Source of the DNA: an uncultured Clostridia bacterium
GTDB taxonomy: Bacteria; Bacillota; Clostridia; Christensenellales; Borkfalkiaceae
NCBI GenBank assembly: GCA_947625025.1
Contig: CANQMQ010000004.1
Location: 1 to 64,000, forward strand
DNA: 64,000 nt
Direction: 5' to 3'
Under the pieces are notes generated by a model, which saw only the letters and a list, made by a program, of their open reading frames with translations, did no database searches and was not told the DNA's origin. The position numbers and the translations under genes were made by a program. Below, in pieces: positions 4,401-55,184 of this stretch (its first letter is position 1; each line of letters starts with the position of its first letter).

Positions 4401-5277
4401 GCAGAGTTATCTTAATTGTGTTGGACACAAAGGTGCTCCGCTTGTAAAAGAGGCAAAGGACATCCGTAGAATTGCTTCCCGCGGGGAGCTTACAACAAAT
4501 CAAAAGATTCTCCACAAGATTCTCATCTGTGTTGTTTTAGGCGTAACTCTATCATTTCTCTTCCTGATTCCGCTCATGTTCTCCGTATTCCGCGGGGCGG
4601 CGGCGTACTTTTTCCCCACGGCAACTTCGTACTTCAAGTTGTTCTTTGCTTTCTATGTTGTGGCAACATTTGAGACGTTTTTGAATCTCTTCTTTTGCTT
4701 CGGTGTGTACAGTCTCCTTCAATTCTTACGTCCAACGAGCAGGTACATGGAGCGCAAGGCGTGGCTGAAAAAAACGATCGGATTTCTCTCTGCGTTCAGC
4801 ATCCTACTTGGTTGCTACGCACTGTTTTGGGACTGGGGCTATGAGGTCTTCTTGTTCGATGTCCGTTTCATACCTGCCGAGCTCTGCACCATCATTCTCC
4901 TTGCGAGCGGGATTATGCTCGTCGTGATGATTTCCCACGAGATGTACACCTTCATCGCGCATGATCGGACAGTTCGACCCGTTGCGCTAAATGCCAATAG
5001 GCTCTGTAAAGAGGGGGCACACATGCTTTGGGGGTTGGGGGTAGATACTGTATTTCTCGTCGGGGTCGTTTTAATGTACTATTTCAGTGCGCACTTCTAT
5101 ATCCGTGCAGGGGGAACCGATCTTACGGCATTTTCCGCGCCTATCTTCATCTTTCCTACCATAATATTTGGGATTGTTGCGGGCATAGCGGGAACGCTTC
5201 TCATTGTCAAATTTGTTCGAATGCTCATTCTCATCATCAGAGGAAGGAGACGTTATGCGAAGGCATTTAAGGATTAA
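1459..5277 (+). CDS. DUF4062-NACHT (STAND) ATPase with C-terminal six-helix membrane domain
   Basis: A 1272-residue multidomain protein. Residues 1 to about 190 match DUF4062: FLSSTFNDMQSERD at 7-20, DLRWGI at 45-50, PFFIGLLGERYGW at 77-89, and SITEME. A NACHT/STAND NTPase follows, with Walker A GDSGCGKSS at 267-275 and a Walker B-like VVLAIDALNQF at 354-364, as in the NPHP3/TEP1-type group. The middle (about 450-1000) is helical and repeat-like, probably TPR-type. The last 270 residues contain about six hydrophobic segments, ending in a basic tail (IRGRRRYAKAF). Known STAND proteins sense ligands and oligomerise; several bacterial ones (Avs-type) are anti-phage. Here the membrane tail could be the effector or an anchor. 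The defence role is inference. The reading frame is intact, and the next gene overlaps its end by 23 bases. Confidence 0.85.
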   Translation: MKNISFFLSSTFNDMQSERDLIREFIAPEVEEYAKKFGYNCEFIDLRWGIDTRDMTENDANRKILNTCFDEIKNSKPFFIGLLGERYGWVPDPEDVAYAMNGELLQNGDSDKSITEMEIDCALRSFPYLDCCLFYFRDPIDYSKDADAKRLYVSTGREKEKLTALKKRLSDLCPDCVHTYRARWDEKAAQIGGLEDFSNLLLGNIKQVLEAEFHGELASKDKLSESINIQDSYIADHARTFSGRKEELKALMEFISSANRRLFVIRGDSGCGKSSLMAKFVSEGEGNVCILPFFVGADGMSFTVENMIRNIIYRASRILGVPLCFDADSDEFEGERMFREFNTLLNALSMNQTVVLAIDALNQFEKTLYEEKLGWLNLYALDSRVKLVFSVTTEYAQNKILSSLGAEFFDLKYLSDEDITSISKHYFATSHRELNEDILHEIVEKENAKSQKSCREPIYLLTLLQEMDSLGKEDFRNIKQREVEHGETPAEAIVGYLKKIVASAPTELVDLLDEFYRNCANKLGEETCKLYASAIALSRRGLNERLMERLSLALGIPFEGATFSYFRKLFKNHLCQHENAFWDFNHALIKQYFQDRTPATVKERIVKAMADCLKQEADDSLFKRTEYAYYLRLSHAFEEFTSFFVKKSADPLVCDSLLGELQKIGNPAELEKLLSDHTHAPVIRQFVESMVRKSAFRYELGEAYSLCALRSIYERDTGDKELKEIVGLYDALACAAEQAGRYSLSKDYFQLAVRIVKKRALNIPLASFYQHIARCSFKLGQVFAGRRYRSLTEQALEAYSDVSAEELLRTYDENCRTKLDELVVDHAPVRRYAKKMLDVVKRAEEGKELMENQALLWDSRILYLIAHTRERETFEPLAARCEMQKTGDPLTDAEIAYNLGMYRSNTNLKAAQMYFERAHSFAKQAICANSANIEALRLIAKICEMRGCFNSLAKKDTALILKEERDVLGRVLTMDPTYAVAQSYLNCVGHKGAPLVKEAKDIRRIASRGELTTNQKILHKILICVVLGVTLSFLFLIPLMFSVFRGAAAYFFPTATSYFKLFFAFYVVATFETFLNLFFCFGVYSLLQFLRPTSRYMERKAWLKKTIGFLSAFSILLGCYALFWDWGYEVFLFDVRFIPAELCTIILLASGIMLVVMISHEMYTFIAHDRTVRPVALNANRLCKEGAHMLWGLGVDTVFLVGVVLMYYFSAHFYIRAGGTDLTAFSAPIFIFPTIIFGIVAGIAGTLLIVKFVRMLILIIRGRRRYAKAFKD

Positions 5278-6316
5278 CTACTTGCTCATTGCACTTCTTG
5301 CCCTCGCTGTGGCTATTACTGGCTCCGTTGGGATGTACTTTTTGAGTGAGCACATGGCATATTCGGCGATGTGGTATGGCTTGGGGACTGAAGAAGATCC
5401 GTATCTTTTGTACAGCGACTCCCAGCTTGTCAACTTGCAGGAGCTTTCGTCCGGCCCTTTTTCGGCGCAATATACTGCTGGAAAATATTTTGTGTTAAAA
5501 AATAATTTAAAACTACCCACTGCAGCAAAGAAATCATCTTGTTACGGTTTTCAAGGCGTTCTCGATGGCGACGGTCACATTGTCACGCTCGGGGAAGGAG
5601 CGATGTTCTATCGGCTTTTAGGGGGGGGCGTTGTAAAGAATCTTAATGTTAAGTTTAATCTTACTGTAAACAGTTCCCATACAGAGGTTTGCGCAGTCGC
5701 CCGTTCAGTGGATGAAGCGGCAGTTGTTGAAAATTGTGTCGCGGAAGGTGTAATCAATGTCGAATCACCACCTTTCAATCCGAACCAGCGAGATGGGCGA
5801 CGCTTTCCTGCGCCTGCGAATTGCGCATCATTTGCCATCGTCAACGACGGAATGATTCGCGACTGCACTTTTCGCGGCAGGATTTGTAGCAAAGACACAT
5901 CTATTGAAGCATGTTTTGATGGAAGAATGTATATCGGCGGCATCACGGCTGGTGGCAACGGACTCATCGAGTCATGCGAGGTACATGCGGATATGGATCT
6001 TGTTCCCGTTGGCAGAATGACATTTATCGGGGGAGTCTCCCCGATGTGCGCAGTGAATGAATGTAAATATTATGGAAATATCAAATGCGTGATAGACATA
6101 ACGGACTTATTTTCGTTTGAAGCGGCGAGGTATTCCACCGTCTATGGGCTTGGTTATCTCGTGCACGATGGCTACTTTGAGGGCGATATCATGCTGTCCC
6201 CGATTGCGAAGGAAGAGAATTTTCAAATCGCACAGGGGGAGAGTACCTACGAATTCCGCGGAAGATTCTTTCGCATGACCACCGACGGTTGCTTTGAGGA
6301 AATTATGGTAGCCTGA
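5255..6316 (+). CDS. Membrane-anchored beta-helix (GLUG-like) protein
   Basis: I chose the ATG at 5255 because AGGAAGGAG lies six bases upstream, giving 353 residues; a longer frame from 5204 has no such site. An N-terminal hydrophobic segment (about residues 9-29) is probably a signal anchor. The rest is a series of short beta-strand units with Gly-Asn-Cys turns, such as GVLDGDGHIVTLG, VENCVAEGV and IRDCTFRGRI, typical of GLUG-type right-handed parallel beta-helices exposed outside the cell. It overlaps the NACHT gene by 23 bases, so the two are probably translated together. It shares its fold type with the much larger lipoprotein at 8809, but it has no cysteine-rich modules. Binding partner and role are unknown. 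Confidence 0.7.
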   Translation: MRRHLRINYLLIALLALAVAITGSVGMYFLSEHMAYSAMWYGLGTEEDPYLLYSDSQLVNLQELSSGPFSAQYTAGKYFVLKNNLKLPTAAKKSSCYGFQGVLDGDGHIVTLGEGAMFYRLLGGGVVKNLNVKFNLTVNSSHTEVCAVARSVDEAAVVENCVAEGVINVESPPFNPNQRDGRRFPAPANCASFAIVNDGMIRDCTFRGRICSKDTSIEACFDGRMYIGGITAGGNGLIESCEVHADMDLVPVGRMTFIGGVSPMCAVNECKYYGNIKCVIDITDLFSFEAARYSTVYGLGYLVHDGYFEGDIMLSPIAKEENFQIAQGESTYEFRGRFFRMTTDGCFEEIMVA

Positions 6317-7189: not shown

Positions 7190-7248
7190 TGCTAAAATAT
7201 TCGCAATTACTTGACAAAATCGCATAAATTTGCTAAAATATAAGCAAT
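7190..7248. promoter_or_regulatory. Paired operator-like repeats flanking the hipBA promoter
   Basis: TGCTAAAATATTCGCAAT (7190-7207) and TGCTAAAATATAAGCAAT (7231-7248) differ at two positions and are 41 bases apart, close to four helical turns. Each has an inverted TTGC/GCAA-type element at its ends. The first lies just upstream of the -35; the second covers the -10 and reaches the hipB start codon. HipB proteins bind multiple operators at their own promoter as dimers, so these are the likely autoregulatory sites. Confidence 0.75.
7211..7239 (+). promoter_or_regulatory. hipBA promoter
   Basis: A perfect TTGACA -35 (7211-7216) and TAAAAT -10 (7234-7239) are 17 bases apart. The expected start of transcription, about seven bases after the -10, falls within a few bases of the hipB ATG at 7249, so the message would be almost leaderless. 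Confidence 0.85.
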
Positions 7249-7536
7249 ATGAAACGGTTTGACATCGGGGATTTTGTTCCCACTCTCACAGAAAAGGCGG
7301 TTTCGCAAGATCTTGTGGAGCGCTTCAAAAAGAGAAGGAAGGAGCTCAAGCTCTCTCAAAAGGTGCTTGCGGTACATTCGGGGGTATCCTATGCCTCCAT
7401 CCGAAGGTTCGAGCAGACGGGGGAGATCTCCCTTCGTTCCCTCATCAAACTCGCAAACGCCATCGGTTGCCTTGCCGATTTTGAAGAACTCTTCAAGCAC
7501 GAGATCATCATAAGCGTAAAGGATTACAAGAAATGA
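7249..7536 (+). CDS. hipB: HipB-type antitoxin, XRE-family DNA-binding protein
   Basis: A 95-residue protein with a central helix-turn-helix of the XRE/Cro-CI type (about residues 25-80: RRKELKLSQKVLA, GVSYASIRRFEQTG, LANAIGC). The stop overlaps the following HipA gene by four bases (ATGA), the usual HipBA arrangement. By family, it binds operators at its promoter and holds the HipA kinase inactive, repressing the operon more strongly in complex. There is no ribosome binding site before the ATG, and the -10 ends only nine bases upstream. The message is therefore either leaderless or starts further upstream than predicted. Confidence 0.85.
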   Translation: MKRFDIGDFVPTLTEKAVSQDLVERFKKRRKELKLSQKVLAVHSGVSYASIRRFEQTGEISLRSLIKLANAIGCLADFEELFKHEIIISVKDYKK

Positions 7537-8624
7537 TCGGGGAAGTAACAAAATTGGCCGTCATGTATAACGGCCGCCCCGTGGGGCACCTTGCAACCAC
7601 GGAAGAGGGGATCGCCTTTCAATACGATGCCGCATGGCTCAAAGAAGGCTTCTCCATTTCTCCCTTTTCCCTTCCGCTCGAAGGCGGGGTCTACCGCAAC
7701 CGTAAAGATAATTTTGAAGGGCTTTACGGCGTCTTTCACGATTGTCTTCCCGATGGATGGGGGGAGCTTCTCGTAAGCCGAATGTGTGCGAAGAAGGGGA
7801 TTTATTACGAAAAGCTCAATCCCCTCACCAAGCTCTCCCTCATTGGCGGGAACGGCCTCGGCGGGCTCAACTACGAACCGACACAAGCGGTTGAACGGGC
7901 GGGTGCGCATTTCGATTTGGAAGAACTTGCCGAGGAAGCGAACGCCGTTTTGCATGATGCGCAGAGGCCCATCGGGGATTTGGACGAATTGTATCTCTTG
8001 GGTGGCTCGAGCGGGGGTGCACGGCCGAAGGCGCATATCCGTATCGATGGAGAGGAGTGGATCGTCAAATTTCCCTGCAGGATAGACCCGCCCGAGATCG
8101 GCGTTTTGGAATACGAGGCGAACATGGCGGCAAAGAAGAGCGGGCTCGATGTCAACGCGTTCAGACTGTTCCCATCAGACCGTTGCCGCGGTTATTTCGC
8201 TGCAAAGCGGTTCGATCGCACAAAAAAAGGGAGAGTACACGTGATATCCCTCTCTTCCCTCCTTGAAACGACGCATAGGATCCCCAATTTGGATTACGTC
8301 CACCTCTTTCAAGTTGTCCAAAATATTTGCTTAGACAAGGGGGAGCTCTATGAGGCATTCGCCCGCATGGCCTTCAATGTGCTCTACGGCAACAGGGACG
8401 ACCACGGTAAAAACATCTCCTTTTTGTATGACGAAACGCTTGGCGGATACAGGCTCTCTCCCGCCTACGATCTCACGAGAACGCCGCAAAAACCCGAGCA
8501 CGAAATGGCCGTGATGGGGAACCCCAAGCCCGCCGAGAAAGATCTCTATGCCATAGCCGCCTACATCGGGCTTTCAAAGGAACGGATAGGGGGGATCGTA
8601 GCAAAAATCAAGAATACTGTGTAG
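7533..8624 (+). CDS. hipA: HipA-type serine/threonine kinase toxin
   Basis: A 363-residue protein, somewhat shorter than the 440-residue E. coli HipA. The N-terminal subdomain has FHDCLPDGWG and the family-typical G-rich loop LGGSSGGARPKA (from about residue 156), with the ATP-contacting Lys in WIVKF. The catalytic loop NRDDHGKN begins at residue 287 and the metal-binding Asp of YDLT is residue 313, so the kinase looks active. HipA enzymes of this type phosphorylate aminoacyl-tRNA synthetases or other translation factors and cause growth arrest or persistence; the target here is unknown. It is co-translated with hipB. A GC-rich imperfect hairpin follows at about 8643-8665 but lacks a T-run. 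Confidence 0.9.
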   Translation: MIGEVTKLAVMYNGRPVGHLATTEEGIAFQYDAAWLKEGFSISPFSLPLEGGVYRNRKDNFEGLYGVFHDCLPDGWGELLVSRMCAKKGIYYEKLNPLTKLSLIGGNGLGGLNYEPTQAVERAGAHFDLEELAEEANAVLHDAQRPIGDLDELYLLGGSSGGARPKAHIRIDGEEWIVKFPCRIDPPEIGVLEYEANMAAKKSGLDVNAFRLFPSDRCRGYFAAKRFDRTKKGRVHVISLSSLLETTHRIPNLDYVHLFQVVQNICLDKGELYEAFARMAFNVLYGNRDDHGKNISFLYDETLGGYRLSPAYDLTRTPQKPEHEMAVMGNPKPAEKDLYAIAAYIGLSKERIGGIVAKIKNTV

Positions 8625-8722
8625 CGGAGCGGCGAAGCCGTGAAGCCGAGAAATCTCGGGCTTCTCATCATAATGAAATAAAAAATTTTTTTCAAAAATT
8701 TCTGAAAATATGGTTAAAGTGC

Positions 8723-8749
8723 TTGACAAACGGGGGGGGGTGGTATAAT
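8723..8749 (+). promoter_or_regulatory. Promoter with a nine-G tract in the spacer (candidate phase-variable)
   Basis: TTGACA (8723-8728) and TATAAT (8744-8749, with an upstream TGG) are consensus boxes but only 15 bases apart. The spacer contains nine consecutive G residues (8732-8740). Adding two G would restore the optimal 17. Homopolymer tracts between -35 and -10 are a known slipped-strand phase-variation device for surface proteins, as in Neisseria porA. The gene it drives is a large surface lipoprotein. Confidence 0.75.
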
Positions 8750-8808
8750 AGGAGATAGGCTTTATGGCCCAAATTACAGGATCGGAATAAACTATATAAG
8801 AGGAAACT

Positions 8809-11800
8809 ATGAAACGCAAGATTTGGGTTTTGTTTTCAATCGTAGCGCTTACGGCAACCATGCTGTTGACGCTTTCCGCATGTCTGTTCGATTTATTTGA
8901 GCATCAACATAATTGGGTATTGAAAGAGACGATAGCTCCCACCTGCACCGAAGATGGCGAAGAGATCTATGAATGCTCTTCCTGCGGCGATAAACAACAC
9001 AAAAAATTGCCCAGTCTCGGCCATAAATGGATCGAGCTCGAGTACACCGCGCCGACGTGCACCAAGACGGGTTACAGAAAAGAGAAGTGCGAACGTTGCA
9101 ATAAAATCAGTGAGAACATTTTGGAAATGAACCCGCATGAGGTCGAACCCGAAGAGCCCGGGAAGGACCCCACCTGCACCGAAGCGGGCTACGAGCCTGC
9201 CGGCACATGCAAGGTATGCCATCAACACATCAGCCGCAAGATGATCGACCCGCTCGGCCACAACTTTGTAGAGGGTCAGTGCTCCGTATGCGGCGAAGTG
9301 CAGACGTTGACGGTTACATACCATTCCAAAGTCACGGGCGGCGAAACGGTGACCAAGACCTACAAATACGGCGATCCGTTTGATCCTTCCGTGCAGTTTT
9401 CCAAAATGCCCGACGATCAACTGTTCAACGGGTGGTACGGCTACAGCGTCGAATTGCAAGGGATCATAGAAGATCAACATTATACCGAAGATTCTATCCT
9501 ACACGAAGATCTTCATGTCTGTGCCCAATGGGTAGAATACCGCGCCGTATCCACTGCCGAGCAATTTCTTGCGATCGCGGAGAAACCCGACATCGCCTAC
9601 CACCTGACGCAGGACATCAACTTGGGCGGGCAGATCTGGACCCCGGTGGAAAAATTTTCGGGGACTCTGAATGGTGAAGACCACAAGATCTACAACTTCA
9701 GCGTGATGGACGGCAAAGCGGCAAACTCCTACGCCATGTTCACCACAAACGATGGCACCATACAAAATTTAGAGATTTACGACGTCAACTACAACGTCAC
9801 CTACGCAGGAAACAAAGCCGCAACACTTGGGCTGTTGGTCGGCGAAAACAAGGGCAAATTGCTGGATTGCCACATCAGCAAAGGGCAGATCCGGCTTACC
9901 GTCACCGAGAATGAAACGCAGCAATCCACCCACTTCGGCACGATGGCCGCCATCAACCGCGGCACCGTGGAAGATTGTTCCTGCTCGGTGGATATCTCCT
10001 GCGAGCTGTCTGCCCGCTACGACGGCAGCGACCGTCACGATCGCTATTACAAATTCAACTATTATATCGGCGGACTCATCGGCTACAACGAAGGCTCCGT
10101 GACCGATAGCCACTACGACGGAGAATTCGACCTTGTAAAGACGTTTACTTCCGGAAAGATCCTCGCTACGGGGTATGGCTATTGGTACTATCATTACGTG
10201 ACGGCGAACTTCTATTTCGGCGGACTCATCGGCGCACAGAGCGGCGGCACCGTCACGCGGAGCTACTCCGATTTCGTTTTCAGTCACGGCGAGTCGGTAA
10301 AGATGTATTACGCCGGCGAAATGGTCAGTTACGAAAACGCCTACGTGGGCGGACTTGTCGGGCTGAACACCGAAAAGGGGCAGATCTCCTACTGTTTCAC
10401 CACGGGGGATCTAAGCGACAATACGTGGGAAAGCAGCACAGTCGCGGGGCTCGTCGCCGTCAATCAAAACAACGGGTCGATCATAAGCTGTCACTCCTCC
10501 GCAAAGGTGACTGCCGTCAGCAGGACGAGCAACATCGCGGGCGGATTGGTGGGGACCAACGGCGCGGGCGTACAGGATAGTTATGCAAGCGGCGAGGTCC
10601 ACGGCGGGAAGAGCGGCACTACGGGCGGATTCGCGGGGAAAAACACCGCGCAGGGCACGATAAGCAAATGCTACTGCACGGGTAACGTGTTTGCCGAATC
10701 GGGCACTGCCGACTTCTTTATCGGGAGCAACGAGGGCGGAGAATACAAATGCTACTACCTGCAGGGCGCGGCCGTGCAATGCAACGGAGCATACCTTGAA
10801 ACGGCACAATCAGCCGCCGAACCCAAAACATATCAAACCCTGTGGACCGATGAGTTCCTGATGGACGACCTGTATTGGGACGAGAGCGGTTGGATCATCT
10901 TGATAAACGGCGATCCGATGCTCGAATGGGAAAAGGACGTAGGGCATGATTACGAAACCCAAGTCGTGCAGCCCACCTGCGTGGACTTCGGATATACGGT
11001 GTATTCCTGCTCAGATTGCGGGCGCATGTTCATCCGCGACTATGTTGCTCCCATCGGCCACGACAAAATTTTTGTGTCTCACACCGATGCGACGTGCGAA
11101 GAGCCCGGCAAGACCAAGTATCACTGCGATCGGTGCAGCACCGATTATGAGGTGGAGGAGGCATCGGAGCCCGCGCTTCAACATGAGCCCACAGTCGCGG
11201 AGGGTGACGAGCAAGTAGACCCTACCTGTGAAGAACTCGAAAGCGGAGAGTTTACTTCCAAAGACGGCCGCACAGCCAAAGTGACCTGCAAGCGTTGCAA
11301 GGAGGTGCTCGAAGAGTCGGTGCCGATCCCGGCGCACAGCTTCACCGTGCATCATGAAAACAGCACCGAGCCCGACTGCACCAGCGAGGGGAACAATCAC
11401 CTCGTATGCGACATTTGCGGCTTCGAGAAGGATGAAACGATTCCGGCGACGGGCCACACGCTGACGGCGGGCTCCCTCAACTGCACCGTGTGCAACAAAC
11501 CCGTCTGGGATGAATCGACCTTTACCAAGATCTCCAATCTCGCGGGCCTGAAGGCAATCGCCGACGATCTTCAAGGAAGATATATGCTGACGGCCGATAT
11601 CGACCTCAAAGACGAACTGTGGGAGCCCATCGGGACGAAGGAGACCCCGTTTGCCGGAGTTTTCTACGGCAACGGACGCAGCATCAAGAATCTGACGCTT
11701 TCCGACGTTGCCGTAGGCGGGCTGTTCGGTTACAGCACCGGCGAGATCGTCAAACTCACCGTGACGAATGCGAGCGTATCCGTGGCCAACATTACCGATC

Positions 11801-12483
11801 CCGATCTTGGCGTGATCGCGGCGGCAAACAAGGGTAAGATCCTCGACTGCAAGGTGACGGGCTCTGTGAAATTTACCGTAATCGTCAATAAGGCCACCGA
11901 TTCCTTTGCGGATAATACGGCTTCCCACTATGTAACGATGGGCGGCATTGCGGCAAGGAATGAAGAGGGCGGCGTTATAGACAAATGCGTCGTCGATGCA
12001 ACGATCGGCGTGATAGTCGTAGACAACTTTACCAACTGCGCGGAAGTAGACCTGAGCTTTTACCTCAACCGCGGTTGGAAACAGGGCGTATCGAAATTGA
12101 ACGAGAGTGTGACGATCGGCGGGATCGCGGGCGTCAACGGCGGCAGCGTGACCAATTGCACCATGAGCGGCAGTCTCAACGTCGATGTCACCCAACAAAT
12201 CAATCTCGAGCGCGTCATCAACGAAGGCAAGTGGAACGAACTGCGACGCAAGGCGGGCAAAATGGAGATCACGACCAACGTCTATGAAGGCTCTCTCGTA
12301 GGCAACAACAAGGGAGACATTTCGGGTTGCCAAGGCAGCGGCAGCACCCTCAACAGGGTTGGCGGAACGCAGGACGACAGCAGTTACCTGTTTGCCATGA
12401 AGCACAACCTGAACCGCATTTCCAACACAGACGAGGCGATCCGCGAGCTTGTGGCCTACTCCGAAGGGACGTACAGGCCCTAA
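8809..12483 (+). CDS. Large surface lipoprotein with cysteine-rich repeats and GLUG beta-helix domains
   Basis: A 1224-residue secreted protein. The signal peptide ends in a lipobox LSAC with Cys25 as the lipidation site. Residues 30-165 hold three repeats of a Cys-pair module (HxW...APTCTEDG...ECSSCG...LGH). An InlB/Flg_new-like segment follows (about 165-245), then a long GLUG-type beta-helix (about 245-680: GGLIGYNEG, GGLVGLNTE, GGFAGKNTA). A second set of Cys modules spans about 705-905, followed by another GLUG helix to the C-terminus. These modules are common in surface proteins of gut Clostridia and are thought to mediate adhesion or glycan binding; no catalytic motif is visible. There is no sortase motif, so anchoring is by lipid. 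It is a single-gene unit behind the G-tract promoter. Confidence 0.8.
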   Translation: MKRKIWVLFSIVALTATMLLTLSACLFDLFEHQHNWVLKETIAPTCTEDGEEIYECSSCGDKQHKKLPSLGHKWIELEYTAPTCTKTGYRKEKCERCNKISENILEMNPHEVEPEEPGKDPTCTEAGYEPAGTCKVCHQHISRKMIDPLGHNFVEGQCSVCGEVQTLTVTYHSKVTGGETVTKTYKYGDPFDPSVQFSKMPDDQLFNGWYGYSVELQGIIEDQHYTEDSILHEDLHVCAQWVEYRAVSTAEQFLAIAEKPDIAYHLTQDINLGGQIWTPVEKFSGTLNGEDHKIYNFSVMDGKAANSYAMFTTNDGTIQNLEIYDVNYNVTYAGNKAATLGLLVGENKGKLLDCHISKGQIRLTVTENETQQSTHFGTMAAINRGTVEDCSCSVDISCELSARYDGSDRHDRYYKFNYYIGGLIGYNEGSVTDSHYDGEFDLVKTFTSGKILATGYGYWYYHYVTANFYFGGLIGAQSGGTVTRSYSDFVFSHGESVKMYYAGEMVSYENAYVGGLVGLNTEKGQISYCFTTGDLSDNTWESSTVAGLVAVNQNNGSIISCHSSAKVTAVSRTSNIAGGLVGTNGAGVQDSYASGEVHGGKSGTTGGFAGKNTAQGTISKCYCTGNVFAESGTADFFIGSNEGGEYKCYYLQGAAVQCNGAYLETAQSAAEPKTYQTLWTDEFLMDDLYWDESGWIILINGDPMLEWEKDVGHDYETQVVQPTCVDFGYTVYSCSDCGRMFIRDYVAPIGHDKIFVSHTDATCEEPGKTKYHCDRCSTDYEVEEASEPALQHEPTVAEGDEQVDPTCEELESGEFTSKDGRTAKVTCKRCKEVLEESVPIPAHSFTVHHENSTEPDCTSEGNNHLVCDICGFEKDETIPATGHTLTAGSLNCTVCNKPVWDESTFTKISNLAGLKAIADDLQGRYMLTADIDLKDELWEPIGTKETPFAGVFYGNGRSIKNLTLSDVAVGGLFGYSTGEIVKLTVTNASVSVANITDPDLGVIAAANKGKILDCKVTGSVKFTVIVNKATDSFADNTASHYVTMGGIAARNEEGGVIDKCVVDATIGVIVVDNFTNCAEVDLSFYLNRGWKQGVSKLNESVTIGGIAGVNGGSVTNCTMSGSLNVDVTQQINLERVINEGKWNELRRKAGKMEITTNVYEGSLVGNNKGDISGCQGSGSTLNRVGGTQDDSSYLFAMKHNLNRISNTDEAIRELVAYSEGTYRP

Positions 12484-52276: not shown

Positions 52277-53173
52277 TTAGACGGGGGGGGGGTATAATGG
52301 CTTAATTTCGGCGGACCGCTTGCGGTACGCCGACGGCGAAAGACCCGTCTTTCGCTTAAACAGGTTGGAGAAGTAAAATTCGTCTGAAAAGGCGAGCCGC
52401 TCTGCGATATCCGCGATCGAATAATTGGTGCGCTGCAGGAGGGATTTCGCCCGCTCGATCTTGTGGTTGAGGACGTATTGGTACGGGGTCCCGCCGTAGA
52501 ACTTCTCGAATTCGCGGTAGACGGACGACTTGGAAATGTATAATTTTGCCGCAATTTCGTCGATATCCGCCTTCCCGTAGATGGCCTCGTCGAGCAGGTC
52601 CTTGATTTTAAGCGCAAGCGCGGATTCCGAATTGGTGCGCGCTTCGAATTGGATACGCTCGGAGATCGTTATAAGGATCTCGTTAAGGAAGCGGAGCACG
52701 GGGAAGCAGAGATGGTTGTTGTTCGGCGTCTCCTTCGCGATCCGAAAGATGTCCATCATCTGTTCGCTGCAGGGAATGCCGCGGATGATGGGCTTATCGT
52801 CGAGTTCCAGCCCCTTCAAAAACGAGGGCATCCAGTCGCAGAAGAAGTTGATCCAGACGAGTTTGAAGGGATTTTCGGCGTCGGGATAGTAGGTATGGCG
52901 GCTGCCGGGGGAGAGGAGCACCGTATCGCAGGGGTTGAGCTCATACTCCGTTCCGCTGTAAATGAGCGTTCCGCGCCCCTCGAGAACATGGAAGAGCACG
53001 AAGTGGTCACAGCATTCGCGGGAAATGTAGTATTGGGGATTGGGCGGCGTGATGCCCGCGATATCGAGCACGAGGGGCACGTTTTCATCGGGACAGTAGA
53101 CGAATTGCTTGTCCTCGACTTCGGTACCCCGCATGACGACGTTGGTCCCGCCGAGAAAGACGACGTGCGGCAT
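52277..53173 (-). CDS. AraC-family transcriptional regulator with N-terminal cupin
   Basis: A 298-residue regulator. The N-terminal part is an AraC-type ligand-binding cupin (HFVLFHVLEGRGTLIYSG, LLSPGSRHTYYPD). The C-terminal domain has two helix-turn-helices: IDEIAAKLYISKSSVYREF, and SIADIAERLAFSDEFYFSNL followed by KRKTGLSPSAYRK. I start at the ATG at 53173; the longer open frame covers the divergent operon and is not coding. It is divergent from the sugar-binding gene and most likely activates it in response to a sugar. The last codons run through a C10 tract (G10 on the plus strand), giving a PPP-V tail. Confidence 0.88.
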   Translation of the reverse strand: MPHVVFLGGTNVVMRGTEVEDKQFVYCPDENVPLVLDIAGITPPNPQYYISRECCDHFVLFHVLEGRGTLIYSGTEYELNPCDTVLLSPGSRHTYYPDAENPFKLVWINFFCDWMPSFLKGLELDDKPIIRGIPCSEQMMDIFRIAKETPNNNHLCFPVLRFLNEILITISERIQFEARTNSESALALKIKDLLDEAIYGKADIDEIAAKLYISKSSVYREFEKFYGGTPYQYVLNHKIERAKSLLQRTNYSIADIAERLAFSDEFYFSNLFKRKTGLSPSAYRKRSAEIKPLYPPPV

Positions 53174-53225
53174 AGCTTGTGGGCAAATCTCCTCATGCGT
53201 ATTATTCGAAGATCCTACGAACGAT

Positions 53226-53254
53226 ATTATACTCAAAGTGAAGAAAAAAATCAA
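53226..53254 (-). promoter_or_regulatory. Promoter of the AraC-type regulator
   Basis: On the minus strand TTGATT (53254-53249) and TATAAT (53231-53226) are 17 bases apart. The region up to 53378 is A/T-rich and contains several ATTTC/GAAAT elements that could be regulator half-sites, but no clear consensus promoter for the plus-strand operon. Confidence 0.75.
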
Positions 53255-53378
53255 CCGTTTGAATGAGAATTTCAAAAATGAAGCAAAATTTCTATTTTCG
53301 ATGAAATTTACGATATTTTGCAGTCTCGCGGATAGCTTTTCGCATGATTGATAAATTTTGAAAGATAAGGAGGAAACA

Positions 53379-55184
53379 ATGAGCAAAAAGGTGAGAGCGA
53401 TCGCACTTGCGGCCTGTGCCGTGCTCGCATGCTCCATCGCGGGCTGCGGGGGGAACGGCGGGCCGAACAACCCGAGCGGGCGCGGCAAGGTGCCGCTTAC
53501 CGTCTGGGCGGTCGTCAACGAGAACAACAAGACGACCTGGAACAAGATCGTCGCCGATTTCAACGCACAGAGCGAATCGTACACGGTGAAACTGATCCCC
53601 AAGACGAGCGGATATTCTGCCCAACTCGGCGGTACCCTGAAGGGCAGCAACCCGCCCAACGTCGTCGAGATCGACGATAGATATTACAAGGGCTACGTCA
53701 ACGAGGGGTATTTGACCGATCTCGAAGAATATTTCGTCGATAAGAAGGATGAGAGCGGAAATGTGGTCCGCGCGGCCTCCTCGCTCGACCTTTCGGATTT
53801 CTGGGAGACGGCGGTGACACGTTACCGCTACCGCTACGACAAGGCGAGCCAAACGGGGTATTCGGGGGCGGAGGAACCCCTGCATGCGATCCCCATCGGG
53901 ATCTCGCCCGGCGTGCTCTACTATAATGCGACCGCGCTCAAAGCGGCGGACATCAACATCATCTCGGTTGACGAAAAGGACCTTGAAAGTTACAACCAAA
54001 AGAACTCGGCTTCCCTCCTTCCGCACGGCTATTATGAGTACGATACAGCGCCCATGAGCGGGCTCACCGCCAAGAACGGCAAGTATCTCGTATTCAACAA
54101 CCGTATCCCGATGAATTGGGACGAACTCGTCACCGTCTCCAAATACTTCACGCGGTCGTACAATGCGAGTTCGCCCACGACGTACGGCTTCTTCAACGAA
54201 TGGTGGTTCTCCTTCGGTTGGAGCGTCGGCGGTGACTGCCTCGAATGGGATTCCGCAAAGAACCAATACGTGATGGCGCTCGGCGAAGATACGCCCAACT
54301 ATCTCGTGACGGGCACGGATGCGATCACCGTCAACGGCAATTCTTATAGAGCGGGCGATCTTCTCTCCTATGAGGACAAACATTACGTCATCGACCACAA
54401 CACGGATGCGACCGTAAAGGGCTATCTCGATGCCAAGAACTTGTATCCGCTTCCCTCCATCCGCGATGCGTTCACCCTCTTTTTGCAACTGCCTCAGAGC
54501 ACGGCAAAGCGGGTCACCGATGAGGACGGCGGCAAGAACGGCTACGGCGTCTCGCCCACTCCGTCGATCATCGGAAATAAGTCCAAGATGAACCTGCTCA
54601 CCTCCCGCGAAGTCGCTTTCGTCTGCGAGAATTACAGCGAAGCGTATTCCATCGGCAGAGGCATGTCGGGGCAGGGGCTCGAATGGGATATCGCGCCGCT
54701 CTACCAGTACCGTGAATACAACGCGGACGGCACGCTCAAGGAAGTCAACGGCACCGAAGTGAAGGGCAAGATGGCGACGCACTCCAACACGACGGGCTTT
54801 GCGATCCCCTCGAATGCCAAATCCAAGGACGGCGCCTTTGAATTTATCGAATACCTTGCGGGCCCCGCGGCGCAGGCGCTCCTCATGCGCGCCAACCTCA
54901 ACGTCCCCAACCAAAAGAGCCTCGCCTATGGCGAAGAGTACATGGGGCTCACCGAGAACTACTTCGCGAACAACAAGCTCGCCATCCTCGAGGCGGTGGA
55001 GAGTTCTTCGGTCGGCGACTGGTCCTACCTCGAAAACGGCGAATGGGTCAACGTTTGGGCGAACGTGCTCAATACCGACGTCCGTAACGGCGACATGAAA
55101 CTCGAAGAATTCTTTGCCAACGCTTGCATCACCAAGACGAATGACATCCTCAAGACGATGCGGGCGAAGAAGTATCACGGTTAA
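53379..55184 (+). CDS. ABC transporter sugar-binding lipoprotein
   Basis: A 601-residue solute-binding protein, larger than most family members (about 430). Lipobox SIAGC puts Cys23 at the mature N-terminus. VPLTVWAVVNENNKTTWNKI opens the mature domain, followed by PPNVVEIDDRYYKGYVNEG, IPIGISPGVLYYN and NWDELVTVSKYF, typical of cluster-1 sugar-binding proteins, and FEFIEYLAGPAAQALLM near the end. Two inserted regions account for the extra length. AAGGAGG precedes the ATG. It is followed by two permeases and is divergent from the AraC regulator; the ligand is likely an oligosaccharide from the GH43 neighbour. Confidence 0.88.
   Translation: MSKKVRAIALAACAVLACSIAGCGGNGGPNNPSGRGKVPLTVWAVVNENNKTTWNKIVADFNAQSESYTVKLIPKTSGYSAQLGGTLKGSNPPNVVEIDDRYYKGYVNEGYLTDLEEYFVDKKDESGNVVRAASSLDLSDFWETAVTRYRYRYDKASQTGYSGAEEPLHAIPIGISPGVLYYNATALKAADINIISVDEKDLESYNQKNSASLLPHGYYEYDTAPMSGLTAKNGKYLVFNNRIPMNWDELVTVSKYFTRSYNASSPTTYGFFNEWWFSFGWSVGGDCLEWDSAKNQYVMALGEDTPNYLVTGTDAITVNGNSYRAGDLLSYEDKHYVIDHNTDATVKGYLDAKNLYPLPSIRDAFTLFLQLPQSTAKRVTDEDGGKNGYGVSPTPSIIGNKSKMNLLTSREVAFVCENYSEAYSIGRGMSGQGLEWDIAPLYQYREYNADGTLKEVNGTEVKGKMATHSNTTGFAIPSNAKSKDGAFEFIEYLAGPAAQALLMRANLNVPNQKSLAYGEEYMGLTENYFANNKLAILEAVESSSVGDWSYLENGEWVNVWANVLNTDVRNGDMKLEEFFANACITKTNDILKTMRAKKYHG

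Follow-up and report, generated by a model that had tools for sequence, protein, structure and literature searches.

A poly-G tract between consensus promoter boxes as a likely phase-variation switch of a lipoprotein gene in an uncultured gut Clostridia bacterium

We propose that the promoter at 8723-8749 of the window (the whole stretch of 64,000 nucleotides that was analysed) is likely a slipped-strand switch of the porA type, by which transcription of the downstream lipoprotein gene would be phase-variable. Relatives carry the same design mostly in front of predicted surface lipoproteins, which strongly suggests a gene family that would be switched randomly by gain and loss of G residues.

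Results

Architecture of the promoter

The nine-G run lies between exact -35 and -10 consensus boxes that are 15 bases apart (Table 1), as the earlier note had claimed. The spacer at 8729-8743 reads AACGGGGGGGGGTGG, with the layout AAC-G9-TGG, and TATAAT is separated from the start codon of the lipoprotein gene by 59 nt, placing the probable transcription start near 8756. The spacer ends in an extended -10 motif (T8741-G8742, in TGG-TATAAT) that had gone unremarked in the earlier note; it could soften the dependence of this promoter on spacing and could keep it partly active at any spacing.

Table 1. Features of the lipoprotein promoter region and its target gene in the window
Feature	Position	Strand	Basis
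Hairpin in the interval from hipBA to the lipoprotein promoter; may be a terminator, but lacks a good T-run	8642..8664	+	folding
Promoter cassette, ~117 bp	8663..8779	+	blastn and alignment, 84-88% identity to L001, L004, L005 and L007
-35 box TTGACA, exact consensus	8723..8728	+	read from sequence
G9 tract, proposed slippage site, within the 15-nt spacer	8732..8740	+	sequence; recurs across genus
TGG preceding the -10 box, extended -10 motif (TGn)	8741..8743	+	sequence
-10 box TATAAT, exact consensus	8744..8749	+	read from sequence
Putative Shine-Dalgarno GAGGA	8800..8804	+	sequence; distance to start 8809 fits
Lipoprotein, 1224 aa, target gene of the promoter	8809..12483	+	ORF; signal peptide 1-24 and lipidated Cys25 predicted
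Signal peptide and lipobox LSA-C25	8809..8883	+	sequence

The target gene had been described as encoding a surface lipoprotein of 1224 residues; the ORF length, the signal peptide and the lipobox are borne out, and surface exposure stands as a prediction. Its N-terminus, MKRKIWVLFSIVALTATMLLTLSAC, is a lipoprotein signal with the lipobox LSAC, and the protein carries GLUG motifs (Pfam) and repeated CxxC segments visible in its sequence. Directly 5' of the lipoprotein gene, at 7249-8624, lies a hipBA-type toxin-antitoxin pair with HipA domains (Pfam), which has a promoter-like site of its own with a normal 17-nt spacer (7211-7239), and a read-through transcript from hipBA into the lipoprotein gene is possible. 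The folded region 8630-8700 between them gave z = -2.6, and a search by folding for a conserved leader hairpin gave no significant result.

Recurrence of the design

As G8 runs occur in the window about as often as expected (6 overlapping matches versus 4.5), the tract alone is weak evidence, and we rejected the G run by itself as an argument. The position of the tract is another matter. Among the 92 exact TTGACA-N12-21-TATAAT sites of the same genome, nine have a run of seven or more G in the spacer, whereas composition predicts ~0.08, and the reversed-pattern control gave no match in that genome. Across the genus, poly-G promoters were found in 74 of 103 genomes, more than 150 in all, compared with no match for the reversed pattern in the same 103 genomes. 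That the whole arrangement arises by chance or is an assembly artefact is scarcely credible: the near-expected number of G8 runs in the window speaks for it, as does the fact that the genomes examined are largely metagenome assemblies, in any single one of which tract length is open to consensus error, whereas the reversed-pattern controls and the expected counts rule out a chance origin and many assemblies, from a variety of animal hosts, show the design. The G9 tract does not stand between two exact consensus boxes by chance.

In a sample of the order, poly-G promoters were present in 61 of 396 genomes and 27 of 142 genera, concentrated in four families. Among the matches listed in a wider genome scan, which include a chance background, the pattern was seen in other host-associated bacteria, among them Bacilli, Borkfalkia, Faecalibacterium, Treponema, Streptobacillus and Ancillula.

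A poly-C version of the same design was also detected (14 cases in 11 of the 103 genus genomes, 13 of them exactly C9, with spacers of 15-17 and 19 nt); on the coding strand of these promoters in the genus, G tracts are ~15 times commoner than C tracts. Two further tracts in the window deserve mention. At 52283-52298 a G10 run directly precedes TATAAT, and we rejected it as a second promoter of this kind, as it has no -35 box and is the C-rich end of an opposite-strand gene: on the minus strand, an AraC-type ORF (52277-53659) has this stretch as a C10 run at its 3' end, so that its last few residues would be altered by slippage. The other, a G8 run at 5621-5628 within the plus-strand ORF 5204-6316, is a possible site of translational slippage.

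Genes behind the poly-G promoters

Of the genus poly-G promoters with enough downstream sequence (n=128), 79 lie before an ORF with a lipobox and a further 20 before one with a signal peptide or transmembrane segment; this classification used crude rules and overlooks some such ORFs. Among the remaining downstream genes are those for zinc-ribbon membrane proteins and ABC transporter ATPases. Behind the ordinary consensus promoters of the window's own genome, no lipoprotein was found among 29 ORFs (25 distinct, the other four being repeats from overlapping loci), an enrichment of lipoproteins behind poly-G promoters with a Fisher value of 6e-11. Most of the genes behind poly-G promoters are thus predicted to encode surface or host-facing products.

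The window's own genome has about ten poly-G promoters, most of them before lipoproteins, so that several lipoprotein genes, four MKKFIS paralogues and others, each have their own. In the sister species G002 we counted 19 such promoters, 18 with G8 and one with G7, and the five that were read (L297-L301) have related lipoproteins downstream that start with MNTKKWL or similar.

The extended -10 motif bears on another explanation, that poly-G promoters are constitutive at any spacing owing to this motif or other contacts, the G tracts being neutral products of slippage. The window promoter does carry TGG before TATAAT, whereas across the set TGn is about equally common in poly-G promoters (61 of 150) and in controls (23 of 64), so that it was discarded as a special mark of these promoters, most of which have no TGn at all. 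Moreover, neutral tracts would neither cluster before lipoproteins nor avoid the 17-nt spacing, and we regard constitutive expression as very improbable.

Spacer lengths around the optimum

The claim that gain of two G would bring the window promoter to the 17-nt optimum is sustained by the ordinary consensus promoters, 64 of 83 of which have 17-nt spacing, and by two orthologues of the same gene that have it as well. Poly-G promoters (n=129) behave otherwise: their spacers range from 13 to 21 nt, with peaks at 15-16 (27 at 15 nt, 26 at 16 nt) and at 18-19 (16 at 18 nt, 26 at 19 nt; 11 at 20 nt), and only nine are at 17 nt (9/129 versus 64/83, Fisher 5e-27). The dip at 17 persists once identical contexts are collapsed and is seen in other families of the order too; permutation of tract lengths among contexts gave 31.4 expected at 17 versus 17 observed (P = 0.001). 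The dip is weaker in the wider genome scan, with 12 at 17 nt versus 21 at 16 and 19 at 18 among the matches listed.

Were a total of 17 nt maintained, tract length and the rest of the spacer should be negatively correlated, whereas we found rho 0.01, and this candidate was rejected. Neither a maintained 17-nt total nor a fixed G element would be expected to give a dip at 17, which fits a population that is mostly off by one or two bases.

Tract length in closely related copies

As spacing scatters on both sides of 17 nt and tracts differ in near-identical contexts, spacing does cross the optimum with tract length. The comparisons of tract length are between paralogues and sister species, with one genome per species; a search of GTDB r220 loci for within-species variants matched these same assemblies. 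The promoters L222 and L227 of two species of the genus (G001 and G079) have 8 versus 9 G with flanks that are 97.9% identical, the orthologues L189, L219 and L226 have 10, 9 and 9 G, and within-genome paralogue pairs have 8 versus 9 G (L277/L278) and 10 versus 9 G (the pair with L286). In Candidatus Faecalibacterium gallistercoris, two copies of a promoter region that are 95% identical (L111 and L158) have G8 with a 15-nt spacer versus G10 with a 17-nt spacer. The copies with exact boxes in the window's own genome are all G9, though the upstream flanks of the cassette paralogues are only ~80-87% alike, indicating that tract length does not fluctuate wildly over such a period. Tract instability cannot be put down to a loss of mismatch repair, as MutS is found in 56 of 61 genomes, the window's own included. 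MutS keeps slippage lower, and known phase-variable bacteria have MutS too.

Tract lengths run only from 7 to 11 G with a mode of 9, and they tend to be uniform within a genome, marginally so overall (P = 0.06). Together with the coherent class of genes downstream and the excess of G over C on the coding strand, a bias that slippage alone does not need, this would suit a different explanation, in which the tract keeps a constant length and has a structural or regulatory role, as stiff A-form-like DNA in the spacer or as the binding site of a regulator, and so marks a lipoprotein regulon. The tract starts at distances of 0 to 10 nt from the -35 box and stops 0 to 11 nt short of the -10 box, a latitude that a regulator or a fixed geometry would hardly allow, and the scatter of total spacing with its avoidance of 17, the existence of a version with C9 and the differing tracts of close copies all argue against a fixed element. 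We therefore consider such an element unlikely, and favour slippage. The prior proposal of a phase-variable lipoprotein promoter has accordingly held up where sequence could speak to it, in genus-wide recurrence, exported products, differing tracts and spacers scattered around 17.

Origin of the window promoter

The promoter lies within a cassette of ~117 bp that is present in five copies in the same genome, the other four also upstream of lipoprotein genes. Full-length orthologues of the window protein in G005 and G002 (48-49% identity) have upstream an ordinary TTGACA-N17-TATAAT promoter with no G run. Since these sister species have a standard promoter with a 17-nt spacer at this gene, the window copy probably came ready-made from one of the paralogous lipoprotein genes. 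Most simply, the poly-G cassette replaced an ordinary promoter at the window gene, a direction that we infer from the comparison; that both relatives instead lost the cassette seems less likely.

Three contig ends of the window's own genome (C7:79372, L315; C16:33728, L321; C40:55, L008) lie inside another cassette of promoter and signal peptide, where an identical poly-G promoter and MKKRWI start, common to two different lipoproteins, break the assembly. The shared cassette suggests recent recombination among promoter/signal-peptide cassettes and would fit their having been exchanged repeatedly.

Discussion

In secondary accounts of van der Ende et al. 1995 (as related in PMC7864442 and cited in PMC5084427), porA of Neisseria meningitidis has a poly-G tract between its -35 and -10 boxes and transcription is abrogated once the 17-nt spacing is reduced. 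The tract has the same place in the window promoter, porA encoding a major surface protein and the window gene a predicted one, and the likeness to known slipped-strand promoters that had been pointed out is real, in that both porA and tp0126 of Treponema pallidum (PMC7864442) have poly-G between the boxes. The differences are that porA belongs to another phylum with another cell envelope and encodes a porin, whereas here lipoproteins are concerned, many promoters occur per genome, the boxes are exact and phase variation is predicted.

As porA loses transcription below 17 nt, a 15-nt spacer should by analogy leave the window promoter OFF or weak. We propose that replication slippage adds or removes G in the G9 tract between the exact sigma-A boxes, that the altered count would change the spacing of the boxes and that transcription of the putative surface lipoprotein gene would change with it. 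In the assembled G9 state, two bases below the optimum, the promoter would be weak or OFF; gain of one G (G10, 16 nt) would turn it partly ON and gain of two (G11, 17 nt) fully ON. Slippage within the population and its effect on transcription are thus the presumed parts of the switch.

Other systems share parts of this design. In T. pallidum, eight or fewer G are permissive at tprE/G/J, as determined with reporters and fragment-length analysis (PMC7864442); there too, poly-G promoters drive several genes for surface proteins in a single genome, the proteins being unrelated to the lipoproteins here and the switches tested experimentally, whereas ours are known from sequence. Neisseria fetA has poly-C between -35 and -10 (PMC5320596). 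It is likewise a homopolymer spacing switch, with C in place of G and in a single gene, and the poly-C version is also present in this genus. The Vlp lipoproteins of Mycoplasma hyorhinis have a poly-A repeat. In M. gallisepticum, GAA repeats are upstream of the vlhA promoter (PMC6258824). These mycoplasmas resemble our case in having a lipoprotein gene family with each gene under its own repeat-controlled promoter, and differ in the type and position of the repeat, that of vlhA not being a -35/-10 spacer. In the gut commensal Bifidobacterium breve, replication slippage at a G tract controls a pilus (PMC9187656), a surface structure as well, the tract there being within the coding sequence and switching translation, not transcription. 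Our literature search, of incomplete coverage, found no paper on poly-G promoter switching in the present lineage. The kind of switch is already known; new are its scale in uncultured gut Clostridia, its apparent spread as a cassette and the scarcity of spacers at the optimal 17 nt.

Tentatively, and with somewhat less than even confidence, we suggest that this clade of uncultured gut Clostridia has a large poly-G lipoprotein phasome, in which the default tract would miss the optimum by one or two bases, leaving the genes ON in a minority of cells and OFF in the rest, and in which a portable cassette would move by recombination and make constitutive genes switchable. Discussion of phase variation in gut Firmicutes has centred on invertible promoters. 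Our results suggest that uncultured Clostridia of animal guts have a second system, based on slippage, with up to 19 promoters per genome. The avoidance of optimal spacing recurs in several families; it would mark a mostly-OFF population in a measurable way and could reveal switches of this kind from assemblies alone.
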